Below the pieces are notes generated by a model. It saw nothing but the letters and a program-made list of their open reading frames with translations, had not been told where the DNA came from and did no database searches. From assembly GCF_018131075.1 (NCBI RefSeq), contig NZ_JAFCLS010000007.1, positions 62,001 through 126,000 on the forward strand: a DNA stretch of 64,000 nucleotides. The letters run 5' to 3'. Positions 19,468-31,782 of this stretch are shown here, piece after piece; positions within the stretch are counted from its first letter, which is position 1, and the number at the start of each line of letters is the position of its first letter. The translations under genes were made by a program, and so were the position numbers. This DNA comes from Bradyrhizobium sp. JYMT SZCCT0428. GTDB lineage: Bacteria; Pseudomonadota; Alphaproteobacteria; Rhizobiales; Xanthobacteraceae.

Positions 19468-19893
19468 TCACCGCGCCTTGTTCGCATTTGCCTGCTGCAG
19501 TTCCTCAAACCCTTTGGCGGCTTGCTGCACCTCCTCCGACCAATCGGACATCTCCTGCACCTGGCGGATTTCGATGATCTCGTTCTCGGAAGCCGGGCAT
19601 TTCTTGGCCCAGGCGATCGCCTCCTCGCGCGACGCGACGTCGATCATCCAGTAGCCGCCAAGCACTTCCTTGGCCTCAGTGAACGGACCGTCGGTGACGA
19701 TGGGCTTGCCTGACGCAAACGACACCCGCGCGCCCATCGACGGCGGGTGCAACCCGTCGAGCGCGATCAGGACTCCGGCTTCACTCAGCGCCTCATTGTA
19801 TTTCATCATCGCCTTGACGCGCTCGGGATCGAGCTGCACATCCGGCGCCGCGGTCTCATAGCCCAGGGGGATCATCAGCATCATGAATCGCAT
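19468..19893 (-). CDS. YciI-family (DGPF) protein, paralogue 1
   Basis: A member of the YCII-related/DGPF family: small ferredoxin-like-fold proteins often found with ECF42 sigma factors; their biochemical role is mostly unknown. The diagnostic motif appears as VTDGPFTEAKEVLGGYW, and the N terminus MRFMMLMI is typical. It has 141 residues, with a helical C-terminal tail. It follows paralogue 2 on the same strand after a 121-bp gap filled with nested inverted repeats, so it is probably transcribed from the promoter at 20487-20513 by read-through. No separate sigma-type promoter was seen. Confidence 0.88.
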   Translation of the reverse strand: MRFMMLMIPLGYETAAPDVQLDPERVKAMMKYNEALSEAGVLIALDGLHPPSMGARVSFASGKPIVTDGPFTEAKEVLGGYWMIDVASREEAIAWAKKCPASENEIIEIRQVQEMSDWSEEVQQAAKGFEELQQANANKAR

Positions 19894-20014: not shown

Positions 20015-20431
20015 TCATTTCTTCCCAGCCTGGGCGCGCAGGCGATCTTCCTGCTCGCGCAGTTCGGGGGTGAACGCCTCGCCAAAATCCTCGGCCGCGA
20101 ACACCTGGCGGATTTCGATCTCGGCGCCGCCGTCGAACGGCGCGCGCTTCATCCACGCGATCGCCTCATCGAGCGATTTTGCGTTGATCAGCCAGAAGCC
20201 GCAGACGAGATCGCCAGTGAAGGGGAACGGACCTTTGACCGCACTGCCCTCTCCGCCCTGGTATTTGACGCGCGCGCCCTTCGAAGACGGATGCAGGCCC
20301 TCGCCCGCCTCCATCATGCCGGCCTTGACCAGTTCCTCGTTGAACTTGCCCATCGCGGTCAGCATTTCCGTGCTCGGCATCACGCCGGCTTCGGTTTCCT
20401 TGCTGGCCTTCACAATCACCATGAATCGCAT
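20015..20431 (-). CDS. YciI-family (DGPF) protein, paralogue 2
   Basis: A second YCII-related protein of 138 residues from ATG at 20431 (MRFMVIVKASKETEAG), which is preceded by GGAG. The upstream in-frame codons lie in the leader. The family motif is degenerate here: the usual DGPF appears as VKGPFPFTGDLVCGFW, so the aspartate is changed. The promoter-like element TGTCGG-N17-CGTC ends 55 bases upstream of the ATG, linking the gene to the ECF42-type sigma factor encoded at 30036-31310. Confidence 0.88.
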   Translation of the reverse strand: MRFMVIVKASKETEAGVMPSTEMLTAMGKFNEELVKAGMMEAGEGLHPSSKGARVKYQGGEGSAVKGPFPFTGDLVCGFWLINAKSLDEAIAWMKRAPFDGGAEIEIRQVFAAEDFGEAFTPELREQEDRLRAQAGKK

Positions 20432-20486: not shown

Positions 20487-20513
20487 GACGAACCGGGTTT
20501 TGCGACACCGACA
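20487..20513 (-). promoter_or_regulatory. ECF42-type promoter of the yciI pair
   Basis: On the minus strand TGTCGG (-35) is separated by 17 bases from CGTC (-10), with GGTT directly before CGTC. The same spacing and GTT-CGTC context occurs at 21631-21657, 28306-28332 and 31756-31782. Confidence 0.7.
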
Positions 20514-20571
20514 TGGTTCTCGAAATTATTTTGGAGACCATTTTCCTCGGACCAGATGGGGCCGGAGGAAC

Positions 20572-20943
20572 TTAGCTGTCGCCCTGGCGAACGAAGGCGC
20601 CGTTTTCGTAGGTCGCGCCGAAATAGACGTCGATGCGCCTGATCCTGTCGCCCGCAAAAGCGAAGAACTCCGTATTGCGGAAACTCTTGCCTTCCCTGGC
20701 GACGCATCGATAGGTCACGAACGCCGCCTCGCCCTCGACCATGATCGTTTCGAGATCCTGCCGTTCGATCCAGTCGCTGTTCTTCCAGCACCGCGCGAAA
20801 TAGGTCGCCTTGTCGATTTCGTCGTCATAGGGGCTGGTGAAACGGAAATCGTCGGTGAAGGCGGCCTCGACCGCCGCGCGGTCGTTCGCCAAATAGGCGG
20901 CGAACAGGTTGCGGATAATCCCGGTCTTGCTTGCGGCGCTCAT
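20572..20943 (-). CDS. SnoaL-like / NTF2-fold protein
   Basis: The 123-residue protein has the SnoaL/NTF2 pattern: an N-terminal helix (IIRNLFAAYLANDRAAVEAAF), then TDDFRFTSPYDDEIDKATYF and an antiparallel sheet ending RIRRIDVYFGATY. Such folds serve as small enzymes or binding proteins; the substrate cannot be inferred. Its ATG directly follows the TGA of the upstream GST gene with no gap, so the two are translationally coupled and share the promoter at 21631-21657. Confidence 0.82.
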   Translation of the reverse strand: MSAASKTGIIRNLFAAYLANDRAAVEAAFTDDFRFTSPYDDEIDKATYFARCWKNSDWIERQDLETIMVEGEAAFVTYRCVAREGKSFRNTEFFAFAGDRIRRIDVYFGATYENGAFVRQGDS

Positions 20944-21597
20944 TCAGCGCTCCTTCGGCACCATATTGAAATAGGGCTTGGCCTCCTTCAGCACCCGTGC
21001 GAACGACGGCCGCGCCTTCAGTCGTTCGAGATAGGCGGCAAGGTTTGTCTCGCCATCGCCGAACGGCTGCGCCATGCTGCCGTAGAACAGCGACGGCGCC
21101 GCGGCGCAATCGGCGAGGCTGAAATCATCGCCCATCGCCCAGGCTCCGCCGGCCATCTGTCGTTCGATCATCGCGTAGGAAGTGCGCAGCTGCGCCCGCG
21201 CCTCCTCGACGCCGTGGGGATCCTTCGGCCCTTCAGGGCGAAGGCGGTCGAGCATGATCTTCTGCATCGGCAGATGCACATAGAGATCGTAGAAGCGGTC
21301 GCGCAGCCGGGTCTGCAGGGCCTTGTCAGCGTCAGCCGGAAGCAATCGCGTGCGTCCGAGATAGTGGCGATCGAGATATTCGATCACGATGCTCGATTCC
21401 GGGACGATCTCGCCCCTGGCATCGTCCTGCAGCACCGGAAATTTTCCAATAGGCCACAGTTGCAGCAAGGCGGCGCGTTCGGCCGGATTGCCGAGATCGA
21501 CCAGCTTCGGCGTGAACGGGACGCCGATCTCGTACAGGGCAATCAGCGCCTTCCAGCAGAACGATGACAGCGGGTGGAAATGCAGGGTCAGTGACAT
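20944..21597 (-). CDS. Glutathione S-transferase family protein
   Basis: The ATG at 21597 gives a 217-residue protein. The thioredoxin-like N-terminal domain begins MSLTLHFHPLSSFCWKALIAL, where serine or cysteine near residues 11-14 would contact glutathione. GKFPVLQDD and the PESSIVIEYLDRHY segment form the glutathione site. The C-terminal helical domain has the FSLADCAAAPSLFY N-capping motif. A probable role is conjugation or thiol-dependent detoxification. A TGTCGG-N17-CGTC promoter element lies 33 bases upstream of the start, placing the GST-SnoaL pair in the proposed ECF42 regulon. Confidence 0.9.
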   Translation of the reverse strand: MSLTLHFHPLSSFCWKALIALYEIGVPFTPKLVDLGNPAERAALLQLWPIGKFPVLQDDARGEIVPESSIVIEYLDRHYLGRTRLLPADADKALQTRLRDRFYDLYVHLPMQKIMLDRLRPEGPKDPHGVEEARAQLRTSYAMIERQMAGGAWAMGDDFSLADCAAAPSLFYGSMAQPFGDGETNLAAYLERLKARPSFARVLKEAKPYFNMVPKER

Positions 21598-21630
21598 CTG
21601 GACTCCGGAGTGTTTTGGGCACGTCAGCAA

Positions 21631-21657
21631 GACGAACCAGGGTTTGGCAGGCCGACA
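21631..21657 (-). promoter_or_regulatory. ECF42-type promoter of the GST-SnoaL unit
   Basis: TGTCGG and CGTC on the minus strand are 17 bases apart, with GGTT before CGTC. Bases beyond the core (AAATAATT upstream and the CCxGGTTCGTC run) are also shared with the promoter at 20487-20513. Confidence 0.7.
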
Positions 21658-21668
21658 TTTGCTCCGAA

Positions 21669-22220
21669 TTATTTCGGAGCGGCGGGCGCGTAGCGCAGGA
21701 TCACGATCCCGCTTGACATCGGCCGGCTGTCCAGCAGCTTGAGCCGGGTCCGCGCGCCCTGTTTGAACAACGGCGTTCCGCCGCCAAGGATGATCGGGTT
21801 CAGCGCGATGCGGAATTCGTCGATCACGCCGTGCGGAATCAGGTGCGACGCCAGATCGGCGCTGCCGAACAGAAAGATATCCCTCGGCGCATCGCGCTTC
21901 AATTTGGTGACGGTATCGACCACGTCGTCCGCGAACATCTGCGTGTTGTTCCAGCCGGATTGTTTCAGCGTGCGCGAGAACACGTATTTCGGCACAGCAT
22001 TCATGAAGTCGGCGACTTCGCCGGTCGCATTCGGCCAATGGTTCGCCATCAGCTCATAGGTGACGCGGCCGAACAGCAATCCGCCGGCGGCGTTGAGCTG
22101 CTCGATCGACAACCGCTCCAGTTCTTCGCCCCAGACGTCTTCATGCCAGGAGATGTCCCGGTTCGGCCCTTCGACGAAGCCATCCAGCGTCATCAGGTTC
22201 CACATGATCAGCTTTGCCAT
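21669..22220 (-). CDS. Dihydrofolate reductase-like protein (RibD C-terminal family)
   Basis: A 183-residue member of the RibD C-terminal/DHFR-like family (KLIMWNLMTLDGFVEGP at the start, LLFGRVTYELM, IFLFGSADLASHLIPHG and IILGGGTPLF). These proteins usually bind NAD(P)H and are often stress-linked; few have known substrates. It is divergent from an HxlR-family regulator, with an inverted repeat between the two starts that probably controls it. It does not carry the ECF42-type promoter, although the GST unit follows 71 bp downstream on the same strand. Confidence 0.88.
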   Translation of the reverse strand: MAKLIMWNLMTLDGFVEGPNRDISWHEDVWGEELERLSIEQLNAAGGLLFGRVTYELMANHWPNATGEVADFMNAVPKYVFSRTLKQSGWNNTQMFADDVVDTVTKLKRDAPRDIFLFGSADLASHLIPHGVIDEFRIALNPIILGGGTPLFKQGARTRLKLLDSRPMSSGIVILRYAPAAPK

Positions 22221-22252
22221 CTCGGCGCTCCCTTAACTGATTGCGATTTGCA

Positions 22253-22278
22253 ACTGGTTGTATCCTGAGACAACCGGT
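22253..22278. promoter_or_regulatory. Inverted repeat between the reductase and hxlR-type genes
   Basis: ACTGGTTGT (22253-22261) and ACAACCGGT (22270-22278) are inverted with one mismatch and an 8-base spacer, in the 93-bp divergent promoter region. It is a likely operator of the HxlR-family regulator. Confidence 0.65.
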
Positions 22279-22313
22279 GCAATAATGCAAGCAGTTTTTT
22301 CGGAGACGAATCC

Positions 22314-22805
22314 ATGGCTGACGACCAACGCTCCGGCTGCCCGATCAACCTCACGCTGGAAGTAGTCGGCGACAAATGGAGCCTGCTCATCATCCGCGAC
22401 ATGATGTTCGGCAACCGGCGGCATTTTCGCGAGCTATTGACCAAGTCCGAGGAAGGCATCTCCTCCAACATCCTCGCCGACCGGCTGAAGACATTGCTCG
22501 ACGCCGGCATCATCACCCGCGAGGACGATCCCAGCCACAAGCAGAAGGGAATCTATTCGCTGACCGAACAGGGCATCGAACTGCTGCCGGTCCTCGCGCA
22601 GATGGCAGCCTGGGGTTACCAATATCTCCCGGTCTCCGAAGAACTCGGCATCCGCGCCAGGTTGCTCCGCGAGGGCGGGCCCAAAATGTGGGCAGAGTTC
22701 ATGGACGAGTTGCGCGAGACTCATCTGGGTCAGGTCCGGCGCAGGAAGGGGCCGACGGTCGGTGAGCGGCTCCAGGCGTATGAGAGTGTCGTGAACCGGA
22801 CATAA
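22314..22805 (+). CDS. HxlR-family transcriptional regulator
   Basis: A winged helix-turn-helix protein of the HxlR family (163 residues). The hallmark N terminus CPINLTLEVVGDKWSLLIIRD contains the conserved cysteine (Cys9), which in several family members senses electrophiles or disulfide stress. HFRELL and SSNILADRLKTLLDAGII form the recognition helices. A C-terminal extension of about 50 residues is charged. It is divergent from the DHFR-like gene and probably regulates it through the inverted repeat at 22253-22278. Redox sensing here is an inference from the family. Confidence 0.92.
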   Translation: MADDQRSGCPINLTLEVVGDKWSLLIIRDMMFGNRRHFRELLTKSEEGISSNILADRLKTLLDAGIITREDDPSHKQKGIYSLTEQGIELLPVLAQMAAWGYQYLPVSEELGIRARLLREGGPKMWAEFMDELRETHLGQVRRRKGPTVGERLQAYESVVNRT

Positions 22806-23080
22806 CGTTCAAAAAGCTCAAGAAATTCGCTCCGTATGAATACGTAGCCGGCAGGCATGGTCGGAGGCCGTCACTCTGCCCATCAACGTGCACACGCGAC
22901 AAATTATCGCGATGGATGAAGGCGCAAAGACAATTCACACCCGGGAGCGCGTTCGCAGGAATTTCATCAGGCGAAACATTGGCGAACGAGATGGTTTACG
23001 GTTGATAAACGGGTATCTGCAACTTTTTCCCGTAGTGAATTATCAGCCATCCATTTTTCAAACAGCGCGCGGAGCCTCAC

Positions 23081-24748
23081 GTGTTCAATCTGCAAAAGAA
23101 AGCAAACACCCAAAGCGCGCTTGCCCAAGCCGCTGCCATCAACAAGTCGCAGGCCGTGATCGAGTTCAAGCTCGACGGTACCATCGTCACCGCGAACCCG
23201 AATTTTCTCGGCGCCGTGGGCTACACGCTGGCCGAAATCCAGGGCAAGCATCACGGCATGTTCGTCGATCCGGCCGAGCGCGAGAGCGCGGCCTATCGCG
23301 AATTCTGGGCGCGGCTGAACCGGGGCGAATTCCAGGCCGCCCAATACAAGCGGTTCGGCAAGGGCGGCCGCGAGATCTGGATCCAGGCGTCCTACAATCC
23401 GATCCTCGATAGCGGCGGAAAGCCGGTCGGGGTCATCAAATTCGCGACCGACATTACGGCGCAAAAGATCCACAGCATGGAGGACGCCGGCAAGATTGCC
23501 GCCCTCAGCCGGGCCCAGGCCGTGATCGAGTTCAACATGGACGGCACCATCGTCACCGCCAACGAGAATTTCCTCGGCGCGGTCGGTTACGCGCTCGAGG
23601 AGATCCAGGGCAAGCACCACAGCATGTTCGTGGTCCCGGAAGAGCGCGACAGCGCTGCCTATCGCGAATTCTGGGCGCGGCTGAACCGCGGCCAGTACGA
23701 AGCCGCCGAATACAAGCGCCTCGGCAAGGGCGGCAAGGAAATCTGGATCCTCGCCAGCTACAATCCGATCCTCAACGAGGCCGGCAAGCCGTTCAAGGTG
23801 GTCAAGTTCGCCACCGACGTCACCGCGCAGAAGCTGAAAGCCGCCGACAATGACGGGCAGATCGCCGCGATCGTCAAGTCGCAGGCCGTGATCGAATTCA
23901 ACATGGACGGCACGATCCGCACCGCCAATCCGAATTTCTGCGCCGCGCTCGGCTATTCGCTGCCGGAAATCCAGGGCAAGCATCACGGCATGTTCGTCGA
24001 GCCGAACGAGCGCAACGCGCCGGCGTATCGCGAATTCTGGGAAAATCTCAACCGCGGCCAGTACCAGGCGGCGCAATACAAGCGGATCGCCAAGGGTGGC
24101 CGCGAAATCTGGATCCAGGCGTCCTACAATCCGATCCTCGACCTCAACGGCAAGCCGTTCAAGGTGGTGAAATACGCGACCGACATCACCGCCCAGGCGA
24201 TTGCGCGCAAGAAGGCCGAGAACGCCCGCGGCCTGATCGAGTCGGTGGCAGCGGGCAGCGAAGAGATGAGCGCCTCGATCCGCGAAATCTCCGAGACCAT
24301 GACCAAGTCCAAGGCGAATGCCGCGAACGCGACCGCCCGGGTCGAAGCCGCGGACGCGCAAGCCGTGAAGCTCAGCGCCGCTTCGCAAGCCATGAGCGGT
24401 ATCGTCGAACTGATCGGCAACATCACCGGACAGATCAACCTTCTGGCGCTGAACGCCACCATCGAATCGGCGCGGGCGGGCGAAGCGGGCCGCGGCTTTG
24501 CCGTGGTGGCCTCCGAGGTCAAGAACCTCGCCAATCAGGCCAAGCACGCCACCGACACGATCTCGAAGGAGATCGAACAGCTGAACGGCGTCGCCAGCGA
24601 GGTCGTGGGCTCGCTCACGGCCATCAAGGAGGCGATCGCCAGCGTCAACGAGTTCATCGCCTCCACGGCGGCCGCCGTGGAAGAGCAGAGCGCCGTCACA
24701 TCGGACATGTCGTCCAACATGCAGCGCGCCTCCGCCGAATTGGCCTGA
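23081..24748 (+). CDS. Soluble methyl-accepting chemotaxis protein with three tandem PAS domains
   Basis: The start is GTG at 23081 with GGAG nine bases upstream. Three near-identical PAS repeats begin at about residues 24, 147 and 268 (QAVIEF; spacing 123 and 121), each with the [16 protein letters not shown]-type core and ending ATDITAQ. A coiled linker leads to the MCP signalling domain ([28 protein letters not shown]), which contacts CheA/CheW. No membrane segment is present, so it should sense an internal signal such as redox state through bound cofactor. The 555-residue protein ends soon after the signalling hairpin, without a CheR-tether pentapeptide. A strong terminator follows. Confidence 0.93.
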
Positions 24749-24815
24749 TACGGGACCGCCAGCCCCTCGTATCGGTTCAATCAGCCTTCGGGAGCCATCT
24801 CGAAGGCGAGCTTGA

Positions 24816-24857
24816 CCGGCACCGCAGGCGCAGAAGCGCAGCGGTGCCGGCTTTTTT
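24816..24857 (+). terminator. Rho-independent terminator of the triple-PAS chemoreceptor gene
   Basis: CCGGCACCGC (24816-24825) pairs perfectly with GCGGTGCCGG (24841-24850), followed by a C and six T residues. Confidence 0.9.
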
Positions 24858-24873
24858 GGGCATCGGCGTTCGC

Positions 24874-25257
24874 TCAGACCTGGTCCCACCGCCGCGTCAC
24901 TTCCGTCGCGCCCTCCGGCGTGGCCTCGAACACCGGCGACGCCAGGACGGCGTGGATATGCAGCATGTCGGTGCCGGAATTGCGGAAGCCGTGCAGTTGC
25001 CCAGCCGGCACGATCAGGGATTGCCCCGACGTGACGATGCTGTGTTCCCCGCCGAGCCACATCTCGGCCTCGCCCTCGCGCACGGTGAGCACCTCCTCGA
25101 CGGGGTGCGAATGCGTCGGGGCGCCGGCGCCGGGCGCGATCCATTGCTCGAAGATGCACAAATGCTTGGCGCCGTTGCGCGCCGAAACCAGCATGCGGGT
25201 TTCCACGCCCAGCCGCCATTGCTCCGGTGGCATATCCCTGACGTCGACCACCCTCAT
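24874..25257 (-). CDS. Small cupin-domain protein
   Basis: A single-domain cupin of 127 residues. The first cupin motif is PTHSHPVEEVLTVREGEAEMW (two histidines and a glutamate as metal ligands), and the second is VPAGQLHGFRNSG with the last histidine. Such proteins are metal-dependent enzymes or binding proteins; nothing indicates the substrate. The ATG at 25257 follows AAAGGG. It is convergent with the triple-PAS chemoreceptor gene and divergent from the SDR gene. Confidence 0.88.
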   Translation of the reverse strand: MRVVDVRDMPPEQWRLGVETRMLVSARNGAKHLCIFEQWIAPGAGAPTHSHPVEEVLTVREGEAEMWLGGEHSIVTSGQSLIVPAGQLHGFRNSGTDMLHIHAVLASPVFEATPEGATEVTRRWDQV

Positions 25258-25410
25258 TGCCGGACCCTTTCGGTTGCCGTGACCTCGCGTGGTTCGAGAA
25301 CGTGCGCCGGATGCGGCGCAGCATGCAAGCGGGGGCTACCGGCAGGTTCGAGACACAATGAACGGCGTGGGGTATAGAGCCAAAGAATCAATCATCAGCG
25401 GACCTGCTCC

Positions 25411-26199
25411 ATGCCCACTTCCCTATCAAAAGTCGCACTTGTCACCGGCGCCGCGCGCGGTATCGGGCTTGCGACCGCAAAACGCTTTCTCGCCGATGGC
25501 TGGCGGGTGGCGCTGCTCGACATCGAGGGCGAACTGCTGCGTGGCGCGGTCGCGGCGCTGGCCGATCCCGACAATACGCTGGCGCTGCATTGCGACGTCA
25601 GCGATGCCGGCGCGGTGGCCTCGGCGATGACAAATGTGATCGGGCGCTTTGGGCGGCTCGACGCGCTGGTCAACAATGCCGGCGTCGCTGTGTTCGCGCC
25701 GCTGCTCGAGACATCGGACGAAGACTGGAACCGGATCCTCGCGGTCAATCTCACCGGGCCATTTATCTGCACCAAGGCCGCCGCGCCCCTGATGCGCGAG
25801 CATGGCGGCGGCGCAGTAGTGAACATCACCTCGATCTCGGCGGTGCGCGCCTCGACGCTGCGCTCGGCCTACGGCACCAGCAAAGCGGGGCTTGCGCATC
25901 TCACCAAGCAGCTCGCGGTCGAACTGGCTTCGCTCGGCATCCGCGTCAACGCCGTGGCGCCCGGCCCGGTCGAGACCGCGATGGCGAAGGCGGTTCATAC
26001 CCCGGAAATCCGCGCCGATTATCACGACGCCATTCCGCTCAACCGTTACGGCCTCGAAGAAGAACTGGCGGAAGCGGTGTTCTTCCTGTGCAGCGACCGT
26101 TCCAGCTACATCACCGGGCAGGTGCTGGCCGTCGACGGCGGTTTTGATGCCGCCGGCATCGGCTTGCCGACCCTGCGCGGCGAGCGGCGGAATGGCTGA
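25411..26199 (+). CDS. Short-chain dehydrogenase/reductase
   Basis: A classical SDR of 262 residues. It has the nucleotide-binding TGAARGIG near the N terminus, NNAG in the central strand, catalytic Ser in ITSISAV and YGTSK (Tyr/Lys). The C terminus has the SSYITGQVLAVDGG motif of FabG-like enzymes. Aspartate after the second strand (LLDIEG) suggests preference for NAD(H). The substrate is unknown and neighbours give no pathway clue. Confidence 0.92.
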   Translation: MPTSLSKVALVTGAARGIGLATAKRFLADGWRVALLDIEGELLRGAVAALADPDNTLALHCDVSDAGAVASAMTNVIGRFGRLDALVNNAGVAVFAPLLETSDEDWNRILAVNLTGPFICTKAAAPLMREHGGGAVVNITSISAVRASTLRSAYGTSKAGLAHLTKQLAVELASLGIRVNAVAPGPVETAMAKAVHTPEIRADYHDAIPLNRYGLEEELAEAVFFLCSDRSSYITGQVLAVDGGFDAAGIGLPTLRGERRNG

Positions 26200-26262
26200 C
26201 GGAGCCTTGCCGGACGTGCCAACGTTGACTAATTCAACAGCTCCCGGACGAAGGAGCTGCAC

Positions 26263-26700
26263 ATGCGAATGGCGCTCATCAAGGCAATTGTTGTTGCGGC
26301 GGCGCTGTGCGCTGCGGTTTCACCTGTTCGTGCCGAGGTGCGCATCCTCGCCAGCCCCGGCGGACAGGTCGGCCCGTTTCTCGACCTGTTCGAGCGCCTG
26401 CGCGCGTCCGGCGAGCGCGTCGTGATCGACGGGCCGTGCCTGTCGGCCTGCACGCTGGTGCTGAGCACGGTGCCGAACGAACGCATCTGCGTGACGCGCC
26501 GCGCGGTGCTCGGCTTCCACGGCGCGCGGTCGATCGACCGCCGCGGCCGGATGTATGCCGAACCGGAAGCGTCGCAGGCGGTGCTGGAAGCCTATCCGGA
26601 GCCGGTTCGTAAATGGATCAGCCGCCGCGGCGGATTGACGTCGCGGATGTTGTTGCTGCGCGGGCGCGAACTCGCCGCGATTTACCCGTCGTGCAGGTGA
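26263..26700 (+). CDS. Secreted protein of unknown function (COG3904-like)
   Basis: A 145-residue protein with a signal peptide (MALIKAIVVAAALCAAV, cleavage near VRA-E). The mature part resembles the periplasmic proteins often grouped as COG3904, with a ClpP/crotonase-like look: ILASPGGQVGPFLDLFERLR, then GPCLSACTLVL with a serine in the position of a possible nucleophile. Two cysteines flank this segment and another is near the C terminus, so disulfides are possible. ATG at 26263 follows GGAG. No activity can be assigned. Confidence 0.7.
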   Translation: MRMALIKAIVVAAALCAAVSPVRAEVRILASPGGQVGPFLDLFERLRASGERVVIDGPCLSACTLVLSTVPNERICVTRRAVLGFHGARSIDRRGRMYAEPEASQAVLEAYPEPVRKWISRRGGLTSRMLLLRGRELAAIYPSCR

Positions 26701-26707
26701 AGGATTT

Positions 26708-26789
26708 GTAGGGTGGGTTAGGCGAAGCCGTAACCCACCGCCTTTGAGCGGGGAAAGTGGTGGGTTTCGCTACGCTCTACCCACCCTAC
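26708..26789. repeat. Inverted repeat in a convergent gene gap
   Basis: GTAGGGTGGGT (26708-26718) and ACCCACCCTAC (26779-26789) are exact reverse complements, with further internal GGGTTA/TAACCC pairing. It occupies most of the 107-bp gap and may end transcription from both sides. Confidence 0.8.
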
Positions 26790-26807
26790 GCAGCTATGCA
26801 CCCACCG

Positions 26808-27224
26808 TCATGACTGCATATCTGCCGGGCAGTTGACCATCCAGGGCGTGCCGAACTTGTCGACGCACATGCCGAAACCATTGGAGAAAAAGGTCTTGGC
26901 AAACGGCATCTTCACGGTGCCGCCATCGGCCAGCGCGTTGAAGCGGCGCTCGGCGTCGGCGGGGTTCTCGACCTGCAGCGCGACCGCAAAACCCTGCGGC
27001 TGATGGAAGTCGCCGGGAAATGCATCGGAGGCCATCACCACCTCGCCGTCGACCGTGAAGCTGGCGTGCATGATCTTCTTCTTCCATTCCGCCGGGGTCG
27101 GCATGTCGGCGGGTCCGCCTTCATAGCGCATCATCGCGTCAATCTTGGCGCCAAGCACTTTTTCATAATACTTCAGTGCTGCTTCGCAGTTTCCGTTGAA
27201 GAACAGATAGGGATTGACCTGCAT
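26808..27224 (-). CDS. VOC-superfamily protein (PhnB-like)
   Basis: A vicinal-oxygen-chelate fold protein of the PhnB-like group (138 residues): NPYLFFNGNCEAALKYYEKVLGAK, then MHASFTVDGEVVMASD and the C-terminal FGMCVDKFGTPWMVN. Members have glyoxalase- or bleomycin-resistance-type folds; enzymatic roles are rarely known. AAGGAG precedes the ATG. It is the last gene of the DoxX-SRPBCC-VOC unit, which carries an ECF42-type promoter; genes of this kind are common companions of ECF42/DGPF loci. Confidence 0.88.
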   Translation of the reverse strand: MQVNPYLFFNGNCEAALKYYEKVLGAKIDAMMRYEGGPADMPTPAEWKKKIMHASFTVDGEVVMASDAFPGDFHQPQGFAVALQVENPADAERRFNALADGGTVKMPFAKTFFSNGFGMCVDKFGTPWMVNCPADMQS

Positions 27225-27238
27225 CGTTGGCTCCTTGG

Positions 27239-27280
27239 GTGAACGGATTTGGCGTGAACGAATTTGCGGTGAACGTGCGC
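27239..27280. repeat. Three short tandem repeats between the SRPBCC and VOC genes
   Basis: Three units of about 15 bases begin GTGAACG (27239, 27254, 27269); the first two continue as (G/A)ATTTG. They fill most of the 55-bp intergenic gap. Confidence 0.7.
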
Positions 27281-27816
27281 TACTTCTCGGTGAGCTTTTT
27301 CAGATTGGCAAGACCAGTCTCGAAATCCCTGCCGATCATGCGGTCCAGGTTCATGAACACCTGCATCACCTTGGACAGGAACACGGCGGGCCCGGTCATC
27401 GTCCAGGTCAGATGGGTAGCATCGCCCTGCGGCAGCATTGTGAATTCGGCAGTGTTGTGACCTTCGAACGGCTTGAAGAAATCGAGCTTGATGAGGATCC
27501 TCGAGGGCACTGACGTTTCGAGGATTTCCATGCGGCCGGACCCGACATTCTTGTTGCCGTCCCAGGCATAGACCGCGCCCTTGCCGCTGTCGGCGCCGCC
27601 ATAGGTGCGCTTCAGCGCAGGATCCCTGTCCTCGTAGGGCGACCAGCTGCGCCATTGGTGAAAATCGTTGATCAGCGGAAAGATCCTGTCCGCCGGCGCC
27701 TTGATGCTGATGGCGCGCTGGACCTGGAACGTATCCGGCTTGGTCGCGGCCAGAATCAGCACCGCGGCGATGGCAATCGCCAGGACGACGGCGATGATGG
27801 CAATGATGTCGAGCAT
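27280..27816 (-). CDS. Membrane-anchored SRPBCC (START-like) protein
   Basis: The 178-residue protein has an N-terminal membrane anchor (MLDIIAIIAVVLAIAIAAVL) and then a polyketide-cyclase/SRPBCC domain: VQRAISIKAPADRIFPLINDF, HQWRSWSPYED, and the C-terminal long helix DRMIGRDFETGLANLKKL. Domains of this type enclose a hydrophobic ligand pocket. It is the second gene of the DoxX-SRPBCC-VOC unit (24-bp gap to doxX). A lipid-like ligand is only an inference from the fold. Confidence 0.88.
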   Translation of the reverse strand: MLDIIAIIAVVLAIAIAAVLILAATKPDTFQVQRAISIKAPADRIFPLINDFHQWRSWSPYEDRDPALKRTYGGADSGKGAVYAWDGNKNVGSGRMEILETSVPSRILIKLDFFKPFEGHNTAEFTMLPQGDATHLTWTMTGPAVFLSKVMQVFMNLDRMIGRDFETGLANLKKLTEK

Positions 27817-27840
27817 GTCAGGCTCCGTACGGGCTGGTGA

Positions 27841-28275
27841 TTATGATGCAAGTCGGCGGCGGAAAGGAATGAAATTGCGCAAGGCCGGATCGCGCAGCCA
27901 CAGCCCGCCCCATACCATCAGGCCGAGATAAAGCCCGAACAGCGTGTGGGTGAACAGCGGGCTGTCGATCCGGACATGGGATGCCATCGCGCCGCCGAGA
28001 TACCCGGTCAGCAGGATGGCGCCGAGGATCGAGGTCGGCGGCACCGAATACAGCACGGTGCAGACGATGGTGATGATGCCGAGGCTGCGCGCCAGCGTTT
28101 CGCTGGAACCATAACCCATCTTGTCCATCGTTTCCGTGACGATCGGCCACGGCACCAGCTTGATGGCGCCGTCGAACAGCAGGAACACGATGACCAGGCC
28201 GGAGAGAATACGGCCGGTCCAGCGGGCGGTTTTGGCGACCGGCGCGGGTTCGTCGATCGCAGTCATGGTGGACAT
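27841..28275 (-). CDS. DoxX-like integral membrane protein
   Basis: A 144-residue protein with four hydrophobic helices (ILSGLVIVFLLFDGAIKLV, LGIITIVCTVLYSVPPTSIL, AILLTGYLGGAMASHV, LFGLYLGLMVWGGLWL), typical of the DoxX family. Some DoxX proteins take part in redox-linked membrane complexes. AGGAGAAA precedes the ATG. It is the first gene of the unit; TGTCTG-N17-CGTC lies 30 bases upstream of the start, so it is proposed as an ECF42 target. Confidence 0.87.
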   Translation of the reverse strand: MSTMTAIDEPAPVAKTARWTGRILSGLVIVFLLFDGAIKLVPWPIVTETMDKMGYGSSETLARSLGIITIVCTVLYSVPPTSILGAILLTGYLGGAMASHVRIDSPLFTHTLFGLYLGLMVWGGLWLRDPALRNFIPFRRRLAS

Positions 28276-28305
28276 GGCTTTCTCCTGTCATTTGCATAAT
28301 TCCAG

Positions 28306-28332
28306 GACGAACGAGCCTGACGTAAACAGACA
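28306..28332 (-). promoter_or_regulatory. ECF42-type promoter of the doxX unit
   Basis: On the minus strand TGTCTG is separated by 17 bases from CGTC, with CGTT before CGTC. It differs from the other three sites only in the fifth base of the -35 hexamer. Confidence 0.6.
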
Positions 28333-28538
28333 GGGCAGCGAACTTTTTTCAGGGGCCGCAACTCACGCCGCATAAGCAATGGCAGGTGGGCCGCATGAAT
28401 CGACGGAGCACGCCGCCAGCGCAGTCTCTGGCGAGGGCATCTCTGATCGAGATGGCACACATCACCATGGCCGATTTCATGCGTGCGATCAGCGACATGC
28501 GATTGAAATAACCGCGCGCCTGGCACGAACCTTTCATC

Positions 28539-28648
28539 GCGAAGGCGCGACTAACGGCTGTCAATCGAGACAGCCACCCCCGGCAAAACCCATCCATTCT
28601 GGAGCACGACCAATGTCCTGCGAACAAAAGACGCTTGTCAAAATCAAC
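28539..28648. repeat. Direct repeat of the globin leader and first codons (partner at 28849-28951)
   Basis: The segment is similar to 28849-28951, including the identical CATTCTGGAGCACGACC before the start codon, the preceding GCGAA(A/G)GC(A/G)CGAC and the first codons (GCTTGTCAAAA). It marks a partial duplication of the globin promoter and gene start. Confidence 0.75.
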
Positions 28649-28816
28649 CGGCCTGAGGACTCGATGTCCTATGCCATGATCGTCATCGGCGGCGGTGTCG
28701 GAAATCTCGCCGCAGCGATTTATTCTGCTGTTGCAAACGGCCTGCGTCGCGTCCTGACTGCGCAAGCGCCGGCGAGGGAACGCCATCTCCCGGCTGCATA
28801 TTCTCAGCAGGGTTAA
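28613..28816 (+). pseudogene. Chimeric gene remnant: globin start joined to an FAD-binding fragment
   Basis: The reading frame starts MSCEQKTLVKI, copied from the downstream globin (MTPDQKALVKT). After about 17 codons it becomes MIVIGGGVGNLAAAIYSAVAN, which resembles the FAD-binding N terminus of thioredoxin-reductase-like proteins, although the usual GxGxxG is altered to GGGVGN. It stops after 67 codons. Both parts are too short to work as either protein. It could still be translated, since the ribosome site is duplicated intact. The origin by duplication plus fusion is inferred. Confidence 0.55.
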
Positions 28817-28916
28817 TTGCGATCGCAGCTTCCGCGCAGCTTTTGATAGCGAAAGCACGACCAACAAAATTCATCGAAGACCAATCATTGCAGATCATTC
28901 ATTCTGGAGCACGACC

Positions 28917-29342
28917 ATGACCCCCGACCAGAAAGCGCTTGTCAAAACAACCTGGAGCCTCGTGGTCCCGATCGCCGATACCGCCGCGACATTGTTTTAC
29001 GGCCGGCTGTTCGAAATCGACCCCTCGACGCGCCCCATGTTCAAGAGCACCGACATGCCGGAGCAGCGCAAGAAGCTGATGCAGGCGTTGGCGACCGTGA
29101 TCGCCGGTCTCGATAACCTCGCGCCGCTGATCCCGGTGCTGGAAACGCTCGGCAGGAAACACGTCGCGTACGGCGTCCTCGACAAGCATTACGACTCGGT
29201 CGGCACCGCATTGCTGTGGACGCTCGAACAAGGCCTGCAAACCGCATGGACACCGCCTGTGCAGGACGCCTGGATCGCGGCATACACGGCGGTTGCCGGC
29301 GTGATGCGCAATGCGGCAAAGACGGTTCCGAACGCCGCATGA
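28917..29342 (+). CDS. Single-domain haemoglobin (bacterial globin)
   Basis: A 141-residue globin of the single-domain flavohaemoglobin-like class (Vitreoscilla type). The start MTPDQKALVKTTW and the FYGRLFEIDPSTRPMF segment, with the distal CD-loop phenylalanine, are typical. The proximal histidine lies in LGRKHVAYGVLDKHYD, followed by the H-helix with VQDAWIAAYTAVAGVM. It should bind haem and O2 or NO. No reductase domain is fused or adjacent. The promoter and first codons are partly duplicated upstream. The ribosome site is GGAG. Confidence 0.93.
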   Translation: MTPDQKALVKTTWSLVVPIADTAATLFYGRLFEIDPSTRPMFKSTDMPEQRKKLMQALATVIAGLDNLAPLIPVLETLGRKHVAYGVLDKHYDSVGTALLWTLEQGLQTAWTPPVQDAWIAAYTAVAGVMRNAAKTVPNAA

Positions 29343-29423
29343 CCGGCGCCGCCGGTGCTTGTCGAACCTCACGCGAGGTTGAGGCGACATAGGTCCGTTC
29401 ATCTCGAACGAGAGTGGAAGGAC

Positions 29424-29720
29424 ATGGATCCGCAATTGGAGCTTGATTCCATCCTGATCGCCCTGCGCGGCGCAAGCCTCGAGGAGCAAGCGGAGATCGG
29501 CCGGGGCGATCTGGCGTCCCTGCTTCATGTCGCGCCGCCGCAACTGGTCGACAAGATCATCAAGATGGCGCGGCGCGACAACCGGATCAGGAATGCGCTC
29601 GCCGCGTCACGGTATTATTGCGGCCTCGGAAAGACGATCTGCGACAAGATTGATTCCGTGGTGAGCGCGCCGTTCCCGGCGGCGCTTCAGCCCAAGCGGA
29701 AACCGTCCTCCAGACGCTAG
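29424..29720 (+). CDS. Conserved-looking small protein of unknown function
   Basis: A 98-residue protein from ATG at 29424 (MDPQLELDSILIALRGASLEEQAEIG), preceded by GGAAGG. It is predicted mainly helical, with a basic tail (QPKRKPSSRR), and shows no transmembrane segment or recognised motif. It lies 81 bp after the globin gene on the same strand and may be co-transcribed with it. Not recognised. Confidence 0.6.
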   Translation: MDPQLELDSILIALRGASLEEQAEIGRGDLASLLHVAPPQLVDKIIKMARRDNRIRNALAASRYYCGLGKTICDKIDSVVSAPFPAALQPKRKPSSRR

Positions 29721-29936
29721 CTATCGATCCTGTTTTCCAACTCCATCCACGCAATCGGACCAGGCCACGCAGAACAACGTGAACACGAAGATGTTCCAGC
29801 TTGGCTGGATGTCGCACCACGCCGCCACGACAGGAACGGGCAAGGCGAAAACAAGCGGCCGCGCGATCCAGCGCAGGCAGAAAAATCTCGCGCTGGCAGG
29901 CTCGCCGAAAGCGACTTTTCGCAATGTGTCGATCAT
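29721..29936 (-). CDS. Possible small membrane protein
   Basis: From ATG at 29936 the frame encodes 71 residues with two hydrophobic stretches (WIARPLVFALPVPVVAAW and WNIFVFTLFCVAW). The stop codon abuts that of the preceding convergent gene with no gap. GGAG lies 13 bases upstream of the start, which is rather far. The hydrophobic profile supports a real gene, but coding status is uncertain. Confidence 0.4.
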   Translation of the reverse strand: MIDTLRKVAFGEPASARFFCLRWIARPLVFALPVPVVAAWCDIQPSWNIFVFTLFCVAWSDCVDGVGKQDR

Positions 29937-30035
29937 CACCAGGCCCGTGCTCCACCGTTGCCGGTTAGTCGCGGGCGTTCGGGCGCGGTTCAAATCCGCG
30001 AGGCCGAATGGCCTGTTGCCGGCTGAAGCAGAGGC

Positions 30036-31310
30036 CTACGTCCCGGCCTTGGCGCCGCGCGGCTTGCTGTCGCGCATCAGACGGTCGAGGTGCATGCGGA
30101 TGTGGGCGGCTTCGGCCGAGGTGTTGGCCAGCGCGATGGCGCGGTCGAAGGCGACTCGGGCCTCCTCGTTGCGCCCGAGCTGCATCAGGAAGGCGCCGCG
30201 CACGCCGAAATAATGAAAGTAATTCGACAGCCGCGCCGCCAGCGGCTCGATCATGTCCAGCGCGGCTTCGGGACCTTTCACCTTCGAAACGGCGACAGAG
30301 CGGTTGAGCGTCACCACCGGCGACGGCTGCATGATCTCGAGCGCGCCGTACAGCAGATCGATCTGGGTCCAGTCGGTATCCTCGGGCTTTTCGGCGCGGG
30401 CATGCAGGGCGGATATTGCCGCCTGAGTTTGATAGGGTCCGCTGCGGCGATGGCGCATCGCCTTGTCGATCAGCGCCAGCCCCTCGGCGATCATCTTGCC
30501 ATTCCACAGCGTGCGATCCTGGTCGTCGAGCAGGATCACCGCGCCGTCGGCATCGAACCGCGCCGCGGCGCGCGCGTGCTGCAGCAACAGCAGCGCGGTC
30601 AGCCCCATGATCTCGGGCTCGCTCTGGAACAGCCGCAGCAACAGCCGCGCCAGCCGGATCGCTTCCTCGCACAGCGGGCTGCGGATCTCGGCGGTATCGT
30701 CGCTCGCCGAATAGCCCTCGTTGAAGATCAGGTAGATCATCGCGGCGACCGCAGCCAGCCGTTCGGTGCGCTCCACCGCCCCCGGGGTCTCGAACGGCAC
30801 ATCGGCGTCGGCGACGCGGGCTTTTGCACGCGTGATGCGCTGCTCCATCGCGGCTTCCGAAACCAGGAAGGCGCGCGCGATCTGCTTCACCGTCAGGCCC
30901 GAGACGATGCGCAGCGCCAGCGCGATCTGCTGCGTCGCCGGCAGATCTGGATGGCAGCAGATGAACAGCAGCCGCAGAATGTCGTCGCGGTAATGCGAGC
31001 CGTCGAGCCGCTCGGCGAGTTGCTCCTCGGCGTCGTCGGTATCCGAGATCGCGTGGTCGTCCTCGGGCAGCGGCTCCTGCTTGCGGCCTCGCCTGATGTC
31101 GTCGATCGCGACGTTGCGCCCGACCATGATCAGCCACGCCGCGGGATCACGCGGCGGGCCGTTCTGCGGCCAGCTCTTCAGCGCCCGCAGGCAGGCATTC
31201 TGGAAGGCTTCCTCGGCGGTTTCGAGATTGCGGAAATAGCGCAGCAGCGCGCCGACTGCCTGGGGGCGCGCCGAGGTCAGCGCGCTATCGATCCAGGCGG
31301 TGTCGGTCAT
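30036..31310 (-). CDS. ECF42-type RNA polymerase sigma factor with C-terminal TPR-like extension
   Basis: The 424-residue protein is about twice the usual ECF length. It has sigma region 2 (about residues 15-78, with DPAAWLIMVGRNVAIDDIRR) and region 4 (about 110-168, with LRLLFICCHPDLPATQQIAL and GLTVKQIARAFLV). The DUF6596/TPR-like extension is marked by YLIFNEGYSAS at about 193-203 and HLDRLMRD-type repeats near the end. This layout defines the ECF42 group, which is not controlled by an anti-sigma factor but depends on its extension. Its ATG overlaps the stop of an upstream DGPF gene (ATGA). The pair shares an autoregulatory-looking promoter at 31756-31782. Confidence 0.93.
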   Translation of the reverse strand: MTDTAWIDSALTSARPQAVGALLRYFRNLETAEEAFQNACLRALKSWPQNGPPRDPAAWLIMVGRNVAIDDIRRGRKQEPLPEDDHAISDTDDAEEQLAERLDGSHYRDDILRLLFICCHPDLPATQQIALALRIVSGLTVKQIARAFLVSEAAMEQRITRAKARVADADVPFETPGAVERTERLAAVAAMIYLIFNEGYSASDDTAEIRSPLCEEAIRLARLLLRLFQSEPEIMGLTALLLLQHARAAARFDADGAVILLDDQDRTLWNGKMIAEGLALIDKAMRHRRSGPYQTQAAISALHARAEKPEDTDWTQIDLLYGALEIMQPSPVVTLNRSVAVSKVKGPEAALDMIEPLAARLSNYFHYFGVRGAFLMQLGRNEEARVAFDRAIALANTSAEAAHIRMHLDRLMRDSKPRGAKAGT

Positions 31311-31675
31311 TTCGGGGCGCTCCCGGGTGTGAAATGGCCAACTGGACGGATTTCATAGGCGCCACCGGGATTGGCCTTGCCGAGATCGCGCGCGACGTCG
31401 AGCGCCGCGTCGAGATTCTCGCAATCGACGACATAGAAGCCGAGCAATTGCTCCTTGGTCTCGGCATAGGGGCCGTCGATCACGACCGGCGGATCGTCCT
31501 TGCGCAGAGTGGTCGCCGACGTGGTCGGCAGCAGGCGGGCGACCGGGCCGAGCCGGCCCTGCTTGGTGAGCTTGTCCTGCACGACCCGCAGTTTGGTCAT
31601 GACCGCGGCGTCCTGTTCCTTGGTCCAGGACCCCGTAAAATCTTCGTCGTGGTAGCAAAGGATGGCGTACAGCAT
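31307..31675 (-). CDS. YciI-family (DGPF) protein co-encoded with the ECF sigma factor, paralogue 3
   Basis: A 122-residue YCII-related protein (MLYAILCYHDEDFTGSW) with the full family motif VVIDGPYAETKEQLLGFYVV. It overlaps the start of the ECF42 sigma gene by four bases, the standard arrangement for this sigma group, and probably works with it in an unknown sensing step. The leader between the promoter and this start contains a REP-like palindrome (31707-31751). Confidence 0.92.
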   Translation of the reverse strand: MLYAILCYHDEDFTGSWTKEQDAAVMTKLRVVQDKLTKQGRLGPVARLLPTTSATTLRKDDPPVVIDGPYAETKEQLLGFYVVDCENLDAALDVARDLGKANPGGAYEIRPVGHFTPGSAPK

Positions 31676-31706
31676 GCGACCCGCATCTCCGTTGTCTCTT
31701 GATGAG

Positions 31707-31751
31707 GCATGATCTTATCGGAAAACCGGAGCCCACTTTTCCGGATCATGC
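31707..31751. repeat. REP-like palindromic element in the DGPF-sigma leader
   Basis: The same GCATGATC/GATCATGC element as near tolQ, placed between the predicted sigma promoter and the DGPF start codon, so it would be transcribed as a leader hairpin. Confidence 0.85.
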
Positions 31752-31755
31752 CTAG

Positions 31756-31782
31756 GACGAACGATTATGCCCGCTGCCGACA
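31756..31782 (-). promoter_or_regulatory. ECF42-type promoter of the DGPF-sigma operon
   Basis: TGTCGG-N17-CGTC on the minus strand with CGTT before CGTC, 81 bases upstream of the DGPF start. It suggests that the sigma factor transcribes its own operon. Confidence 0.7.

Follow-up and report, generated by a model that had tools for sequence, protein, structure and literature searches.

ECF42 is described as a widely distributed group of extracytoplasmic function (ECF) sigma factors whose signal and physiological role are open. The closest described member is RpoE10 of Sinorhizobium meliloti, for which excerpts of PMC6180224 report TGTCGG-N17-CGTC at SMc01151-rpoE10, SMc01149-SMc01148, and SMb20475-SMb20474. 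Overexpression of RpoE10 raised six genes, four at least twofold, in two operons, and in both operons the motif lies upstream of earlier-mapped starts (PMC6180224, excerpts). In this study, we analysed 64,000 nucleotides of Bradyrhizobium sp. JYMT SZCCT0428 (contig NZ_JAFCLS010000007.1, positions 62,001 to 126,000; hereafter, the window), which hold four TGTC(G/T)G-N17-CGTC elements and the gene of an apparently ECF42-type sigma factor. Our best explanation, with a probability of about 0.86, is that this sigma factor would read the four elements as promoters of its own operon and of a scattered set of enzyme genes.

The locus resembles the RpoE10 system in the YCII gene 5' of the sigma gene and in the shared TGTCGG-N17-CGTC. 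In the excerpts of the S. meliloti report, the targets are a hydrophobic-ligand-binding protein (read here as SRPBCC) and glyoxalase-like proteins, and one target operon adjoins the sigma gene by gene number, as the DoxX-SRPBCC-VOC unit does in many relatives. The two systems differ in extent: Bradyrhizobium has about a dozen candidate promoters, including those of glutathione S-transferase (GST), DUF2277, second YCII units, and ku, and three ECF42 paralogues in the genome versus one in S. meliloti. The ECF42 motif at several operons is already known from S. meliloti, and the Bradyrhizobium regulon is a broader case; new here are that breadth, including ku, and three paralogues with different own-promoter letters.

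In Streptomyces, the ECF42 promoter reads TGTCGA with CGA/TC, and the targets in Streptomyces venezuelae are the linked DGPF genes. We know of no scattered regulon or paralogue-specific letters there. S. venezuelae likewise has several ECF42 paralogues (Sven_0747, Sven_4377, and Sven_7131) with a tetratricopeptide repeat (TPR) tail and a YCII neighbour, and ECF-10 (ECF42) of Pseudomonas putida has been linked to oxidative stress and antibiotics, which suits targets of the detoxification type (PMC8999054, excerpts). ECF41 sigma factors share the -10 CGTC and a -35 that also begins with TGTC (TGTCACA at an S. meliloti ECF41 target; PMC6180224, excerpts), but they carry a fused SnoaL-like tail where the window sigma has DUF6596. 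One ECF41-like sigma gene (L032, C13:80703; named by eye from its start sequence) follows TGTCACA-N16-CGTC with the -10 context GTTCGTC; L, C, and G numbers are our handles for loci, contigs, and genomes. A literature search, with most subscription journals outside its coverage, found nothing joining ECF42 to DGPF or to end joining, and the term ECF42 does not occur in PMC3420878.

Four elements and a sigma gene in the window

The window contains four TGTC(G/T)G-N17-CGTC elements versus 0.42 expected, and none of 100 shuffles reached at least four. The original prediction, made from the letters of the window, had placed them on the minus strand with exact 17-base spacing and GTT directly before CGTC, 30-81 bases upstream of the start codons of DGPF paralogue 2, GST-SnoaL, DoxX-SRPBCC-VOC, and DGPF-sigma units. 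All four sites are as described and the downstream units agree, with recomputed gaps from site to ATG of 55, 33, 30, and 80 nucleotides (nt), respectively. The looser TGTC-N19-CGTC is not significant in the window (5 versus 2.73 expected; 17 of 100 shuffles reach 5); the argument therefore depends on the complete hexamer, the GTT, and the genome at large. The ECF41-type pattern TGTCACA-N14-18-CGTC has no match within the window, where the four sites read TGTCGG or TGTCTG.

The sigma factor has PF04542 at residues 15-77 (region 2) and PF08281 at 115-165 (region 4), followed by a tail of approximately 250 residues with DUF6596 at 184-285 (Pfam). Pfam gave neither a TPR nor a SnoaL match in this tail, and a fused SnoaL domain of the ECF41 type was not found. 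An AlphaFold model (mean predicted local distance difference test score 70.7) is mainly helical at 178-414. The fold matches of the tail are filled by TPR proteins, the best with a Z of 13.4 over 202 residues, which is to be read against the Z of approximately 13 that unrelated helical repeats reach. On this moderate evidence, the tail is probably TPR-like. A sequence search against solved structures gave no match at E 0.001, and among the 25 NCBIfam matches listed only TIGR02937 is above cut-off. The closest named locus by sigma sequence is that of Bradyrhizobium sp. AUGA SZCCT0176 (99%).

The start of the sigma gene overlaps the end of its YCII partner gene, and a YCII homologue adjoins the sigma gene in all 80 loci of named relatives. 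A TGTCG-type -35 with a CG(T/A)C -10, an ECF42 trait, is present before the YCII-sigma operon. With regions 2 and 4, DUF6596, a probably TPR-like tail, a YCII neighbour, and no SnoaL domain, the protein looks like an ECF42-type sigma factor, as had been proposed. The proposal that the element fits this sigma factor was likewise supported, the motif being the one at the S. meliloti RpoE10 operons. These features agree with ECF42 as described in excerpts of two reviews, according to which ECF42 activity is controlled by the TPR tail through a partner (PMC8999054, PMC9023288).

We propose that the four elements are promoters with a -35 of TGTC(G/T)G, a 17-base spacer, and a -10 of CGTC inside GTTCGTC, which RNA polymerase would recognise when bound to the ECF42-type sigma factor. 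The sigma gene shares an operon with its YCII/DGPF partner. The sigma factor probably drives this operon and would switch on scattered small enzymes, namely the second YCII pair and the GST-SnoaL and DoxX-SRPBCC-VOC units. The same control would extend beyond the window to more VOC, SRPBCC, GST, and DUF2277 genes and probably to ku. The TPR-like tail probably receives the signal via a protein partner, for which the YCII protein is the simplest candidate, and the response would most likely be to reactive or toxic small molecules. One switch would then probably turn on small-molecule detoxification-type genes and perhaps a DNA-repair gene. What we observe are the sites with their spacing, orientation bias, and conservation, the target families, and the family of the sigma factor; the sigma-dependence in this species, the feedback on the operon, the role of the YCII partner, and the inducing signal are inferred.

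Sites across the genome and in relatives

The source assembly (9.24 Mb) was scanned for the motif. The bare TGTCKG-N17-CGTC, with which the original prediction had intended to search the genome, proved noisy: it gave 53 matches versus 28 for the reversed control, so that many of the 53 must be noise. The stricter forms held up, with 19 matches versus 3 for TGTC-N16-GTTCGTC and 11 versus 0 for TGTCGG-N14-GTTCGTC. A scan allowing up to two mismatches lost the signal (287 versus 321 in the control) and was discarded. Since the reversed-pattern control is too lenient for such motifs, varying the spacing is fairer. Over spacings N8-N20, TGTCGG and GTTCGTC gave 26 matches, 11 of them at N14 and the remaining 15 spread across the 12 alternatives (mean 1.25; Poisson 9e-8). 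Whether the motif is equally frequent inside genes was approached through these controls and through the genes that follow; 10 of the 11 exact sites, three of which are window sites, precede YCII, GST, VOC, SRPBCC, DUF2277, or Ku genes (Table 1). Near matches are the DoxX site of the window (TGTCTG) and a site with GATCGTC at C112:7330 before a DUF899-like gene, labelled from its start sequence and the Pfam match of the relative L078. The regulon likely extends far beyond the window, to about a dozen promoters including that of ku.

In an alignment of the YCII-sigma promoter from 20 relatives and the window, TGTCGG-N17-CGTC is kept in 20 of 21 sequences (L062 reads CGTT); TGTCGG and CGTC form a constant footprint, and much of the flank varies. 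In the 80 loci of named relatives, which are orthologous and whose counts are therefore not independent, the exact site precedes the YCII-sigma operon in 70, and in each of these 70 the two free positions are GG. A TGTC(G/T)G site also precedes 54 of 68 DoxX/SRPBCC/VOC units after the sigma gene. The 848,081 bases of these loci contain 181 copies of TGTC[GT]G-N17-CGTC on the sigma strand and none on the opposite strand; at the shifted spacings N12-N16 and N18-N22, matches number 1 to 30 in sense and 0 to 5 in antisense. The TGTCTG of the DoxX unit recurs in L087, L088, and L298, and other relatives mostly have TGTCGG. Both G243 and G184 retain units 1 to 3 of the window, sites included; the GST site occurs in G249 as well, and a homologue of YCII/DGPF paralogue 1 has its own site in L085 and L092.

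Among other genera of the family, the exact site is present at 14 of 20 sigma operons. We compared 215 genomes of other genera, with counts uncorrected for relatedness: the 84 with a strong sigma orthologue contain 130 sites in 452 Mb (reversed 13), versus 36 sites in 592 Mb (reversed 18) in the 131 without one. The genes after 100 fetched sites belong to recurring families in 40/40 cases within the genus and 43/60 outside it, by a list drawn up post hoc (VOC, SRPBCC, YCII, and Ku; within the genus also GST, DoxX, SnoaL, DUF2277, and MFS). By our own class split, those within the genus comprise Ku (15), SRPBCC, YCII, and GST (5 each), VOC (3), MFS, DUF2277, and SnoaL (2 each), and DoxX (1). 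Outside, they are VOC (approximately 23), SRPBCC (10), YCII (7), and Ku (3); the remaining 17 sites have no gene after them, are intragenic, or precede an unrelated gene (amidase, enoyl-CoA hydratase, and others). By hand count outside the genus, recurring families follow 39 of 44 sites in genomes with the sigma orthologue versus 4 of 16 in those without (Fisher 5e-6). The window-type sigma gene spans two frames in L215 (G249) and in L217 (G221), and several sites are still kept in both genomes. These two genomes were considered as having sites and no sigma, which was rejected given the sigma DNA present in two frames.

Table 1 Features of the window and exact TGTCGG-N14-GTTCGTC sites elsewhere in the genome
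Feature	Position	Strand	Evidence or following gene
Candidate promoter TGTCGG-N17-CGTC, DGPF-sigma operon	31756..31782	-	motif match and conservation in relatives; exact genome site
YCII/DGPF-family protein, partner gene of sigma	31307..31675	-	PF03795 1.9e-20
ECF42-type sigma factor, 424 aa	30036..31310	-	PF04542, PF08281, PF20239
Candidate promoter TGTCTG-N17-CGTC, DoxX-SRPBCC-VOC unit	28306..28332	-	motif match and relatives
DoxX-like protein	27841..28275	-	PF13564
SRPBCC (Polyketide_cyc2/AHSA1) protein	27280..27816	-	PF10604
VOC / glyoxalase-type (3-dmu-9_3-mt) protein	26808..27224	-	PF06983, PF00903
Candidate promoter TGTCGG-N17-CGTC, GST-SnoaL unit	21631..21657	-	motif match; kept in G243, G184, G249; exact genome site
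Glutathione S-transferase-like protein	20944..21597	-	PF13417 and others
SnoaL-like protein	20572..20943	-	PF12680
Candidate promoter TGTCGG-N17-CGTC, two-gene DGPF unit	20487..20513	-	motif match; kept in G243, G184; exact genome site
YCII/DGPF paralogue 2	20015..20431	-	PF03795 3e-13
YCII/DGPF paralogue 1, 3' of paralogue 2	19468..19893	-	PF03795 5.5e-22
Genome site	C24:90974		DUF2277
Genome site	C35:70084		VOC
Genome site	C57:157884		VOC
Genome site	C118:54446		VOC
Genome site	C35:105901		SRPBCC
Genome site	C112:81594		GST
Genome site	C126:260887		Ku
Genome site	C29:1179		no gene found after site

Between the sigma-operon element and the first gene, the leader (31676-31755) contains a strong palindrome, with an RNA fold of -31.3 kcal/mol and a z of -3.6. 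In the other aligned relatives with a located site, the gap is 19-31 nt, the leader of G184 being longer. The palindrome core has five copies in the window at up to two mismatches, and because of this repetition it looks like a mobile insertion of the repetitive extragenic palindromic type. At 23081-24748, the window also encodes a protein resembling chemotaxis receptors, in which three similar PAS-like repeats were seen by eye.

The ku sites, the paralogues, and other readings

Several observations weigh against reading the elements as promoters of the window sigma. The exact site is missing at 10 of the 80 YCII-sigma operons of named relatives and at 6 of the 20 in other genera, the site at C29:1179 has no gene after it, and the reversed control is too lenient. 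In S. meliloti, the YCII gene SMc01151 was not raised by RpoE10 overexpression, and the motif found there after rapid amplification of 5' cDNA ends overlaps the mapped start (PMC6180224, excerpts); together these count against simple autoregulation. The three ECF42 paralogues of the genome share TGTCG..CG.C, so cross-talk is possible, and the DoxX unit of the window has TGTCTG. TGTCGA stands at units beside the window-type sigma gene in L283 (DoxX-type), L323, L341, L345, and L357. Finally, G190 and G200 keep the full ku site yet have no DUF6596 match (L109, L112).

The ku site, TGTCGGAAC-N10-CGTTCGTC, has matches in 35 of 291 genomes versus none for the reversed control, and a Ku gene directly follows it in 28 of 30 loci. 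A rival explanation limits the sigma regulon to its own neighbourhood and the enzyme targets and has ku read by another ECF sigma factor with an overlapping -35 (TGTCGGAAC) and the same -10. It would account for the TGTCGGAAC common to all 21 ku sites examined, for a TTgAaTCC-like stretch after CGTC at these sites that is not prominent at other sites, and for the ku site in G190 and G200; an ECF41-like gene in the genome also has GTTCGTC after TGTCACA. However, a strong window-type sigma match, in split frames for G221 and G249, occurs in 32 of the 35 genomes that carry a ku-type site, and the register and spacing are those of ECF42 sites. No EcfG-spaced GGAAC-N15-18-[CG]GTT was found around the 21 sites, and an EcfG-type reading of them was rejected. 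We regard a different sigma factor at ku as unlikely, and ku as a likely, not secure, member of the ECF42 regulon. The three remaining ku-site genomes are of one other genus and have one common 27-mer; G143 has a C24-type sigma only. The 27-mer of G190 and G200 is also found in G143 and G252, and this identity suggests that ku moved between genomes together with its promoter.

The genome encodes three DUF6596 (ECF42-type) sigma factors, in the window, C24, and C114, which are 40-44% identical. The C24 sigma has TGTCGT-N17-CGAC before its YCII gene, and the C114 sigma has TGTCGA-N17-CGTC in that position. Own-promoter letters were read from 24 loci in 11 of 13 genomes searched, requiring TGTC and CG[AT]C and leaving the other letters free. 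The window type has TGTCGG/CGTC in 9/10 loci, the C24 type TGTCGT in 10/10 (CGAC in 9), and the C114 type TGTCGA/CGTC in 4/4. These letters favour the window sigma as the reader of the window sites, with cross-talk possible. A comparison of type-specific residues among the three paralogues gave many positions and no clear specificity candidate. In the genome of the window, the three variants have 11 (TGTCGG), 2 (TGTCGT), and 2 (TGTCGA) matches.

TGTCGT-N14-GTTCGAC has 101 sites in 74 of 80 genus genomes (reversed 9) and appears largely restricted to its own operon: among 30 loci examined, 24 lie before a C24-type sigma gene and 6 elsewhere. TGTCGA-N14-RWTCGTC has 148 sites in 62/80 genomes (reversed 17). 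The N15 spacing of this variant is commoner than N14 in nearly every genome, being present in 80/80 with 55 matches in G340 alone; the TGTCGA surplus is therefore a matter of composition, and its other targets are indistinguishable from noise. Twelve of the 30 TGTCGA loci examined are the C114-type operon itself, and L281 precedes a YCII-like gene. Given the commoner N15, we dropped both the notion of a second TGTCGA regulon and that of a C114 type reading mainly its own operon. As side observations, a hydrolase-like gene (by eye) in L252 (G317) is preceded at 67 nt by a TGTCGT/CGAC site and may be a further target of the C24-type sigma; G294, G309, G310, G313, and G327 have near-identical sites, which makes six genomes. 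Three C24-type operons (L205, L216, and L257) have two TGTCGT/CGAC sites approximately 440 nt apart 5' of the sigma gene.

A more speculative reading, somewhat less likely than not, is a promoter code in which base 6 of the -35 (G/T/A) and base 3 of the -10 (T/A/T) would separate the three sigma factors, the C24 type serving mainly its own operon and the window type acting as a scattered detoxification switch that includes Ku. Given the exceptions (ku sites without ECF42, TGTCGA at some targets), such a code would be a preference at most. A second rival explanation accepts ECF42 promoters but has two or three of the paralogues use them in common, as one pooled regulon with no private one. All three types carry TGTCG-N18-CG(A/T)C at their own operons, and the TGTCGA sites beside window-type sigma genes fit such sharing. 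The differing own-promoter letters and the TGTCGT loci that precede C24-type sigma genes speak against it, and we consider a pooled regulon quite unlikely. That the element is an ordinary transcription-factor binding site or chance, a null reading based on no result, is highly improbable in view of the strict spacing, the single orientation, the closeness of the start codon, and the occurrence of this motif 5' of mapped starts in S. meliloti (PMC6180224, excerpts).

Meaning for ECF42 regulation

The set of enzyme families found across Bradyrhizobium narrows the likely signal of this ECF42 system to toxic small molecules and supplies reporter promoters for inducer screens. Having three paralogues with distinct letters in one genome provides a natural experiment on promoter separation among ECF sigma factors. 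In S. meliloti, Ku is controlled by RpoE2. If the ku link is true, non-homologous end joining in Bradyrhizobium would come under a different stress input, and a YCII/TPR-controlled sigma factor would be linked to double-strand break repair through Ku.

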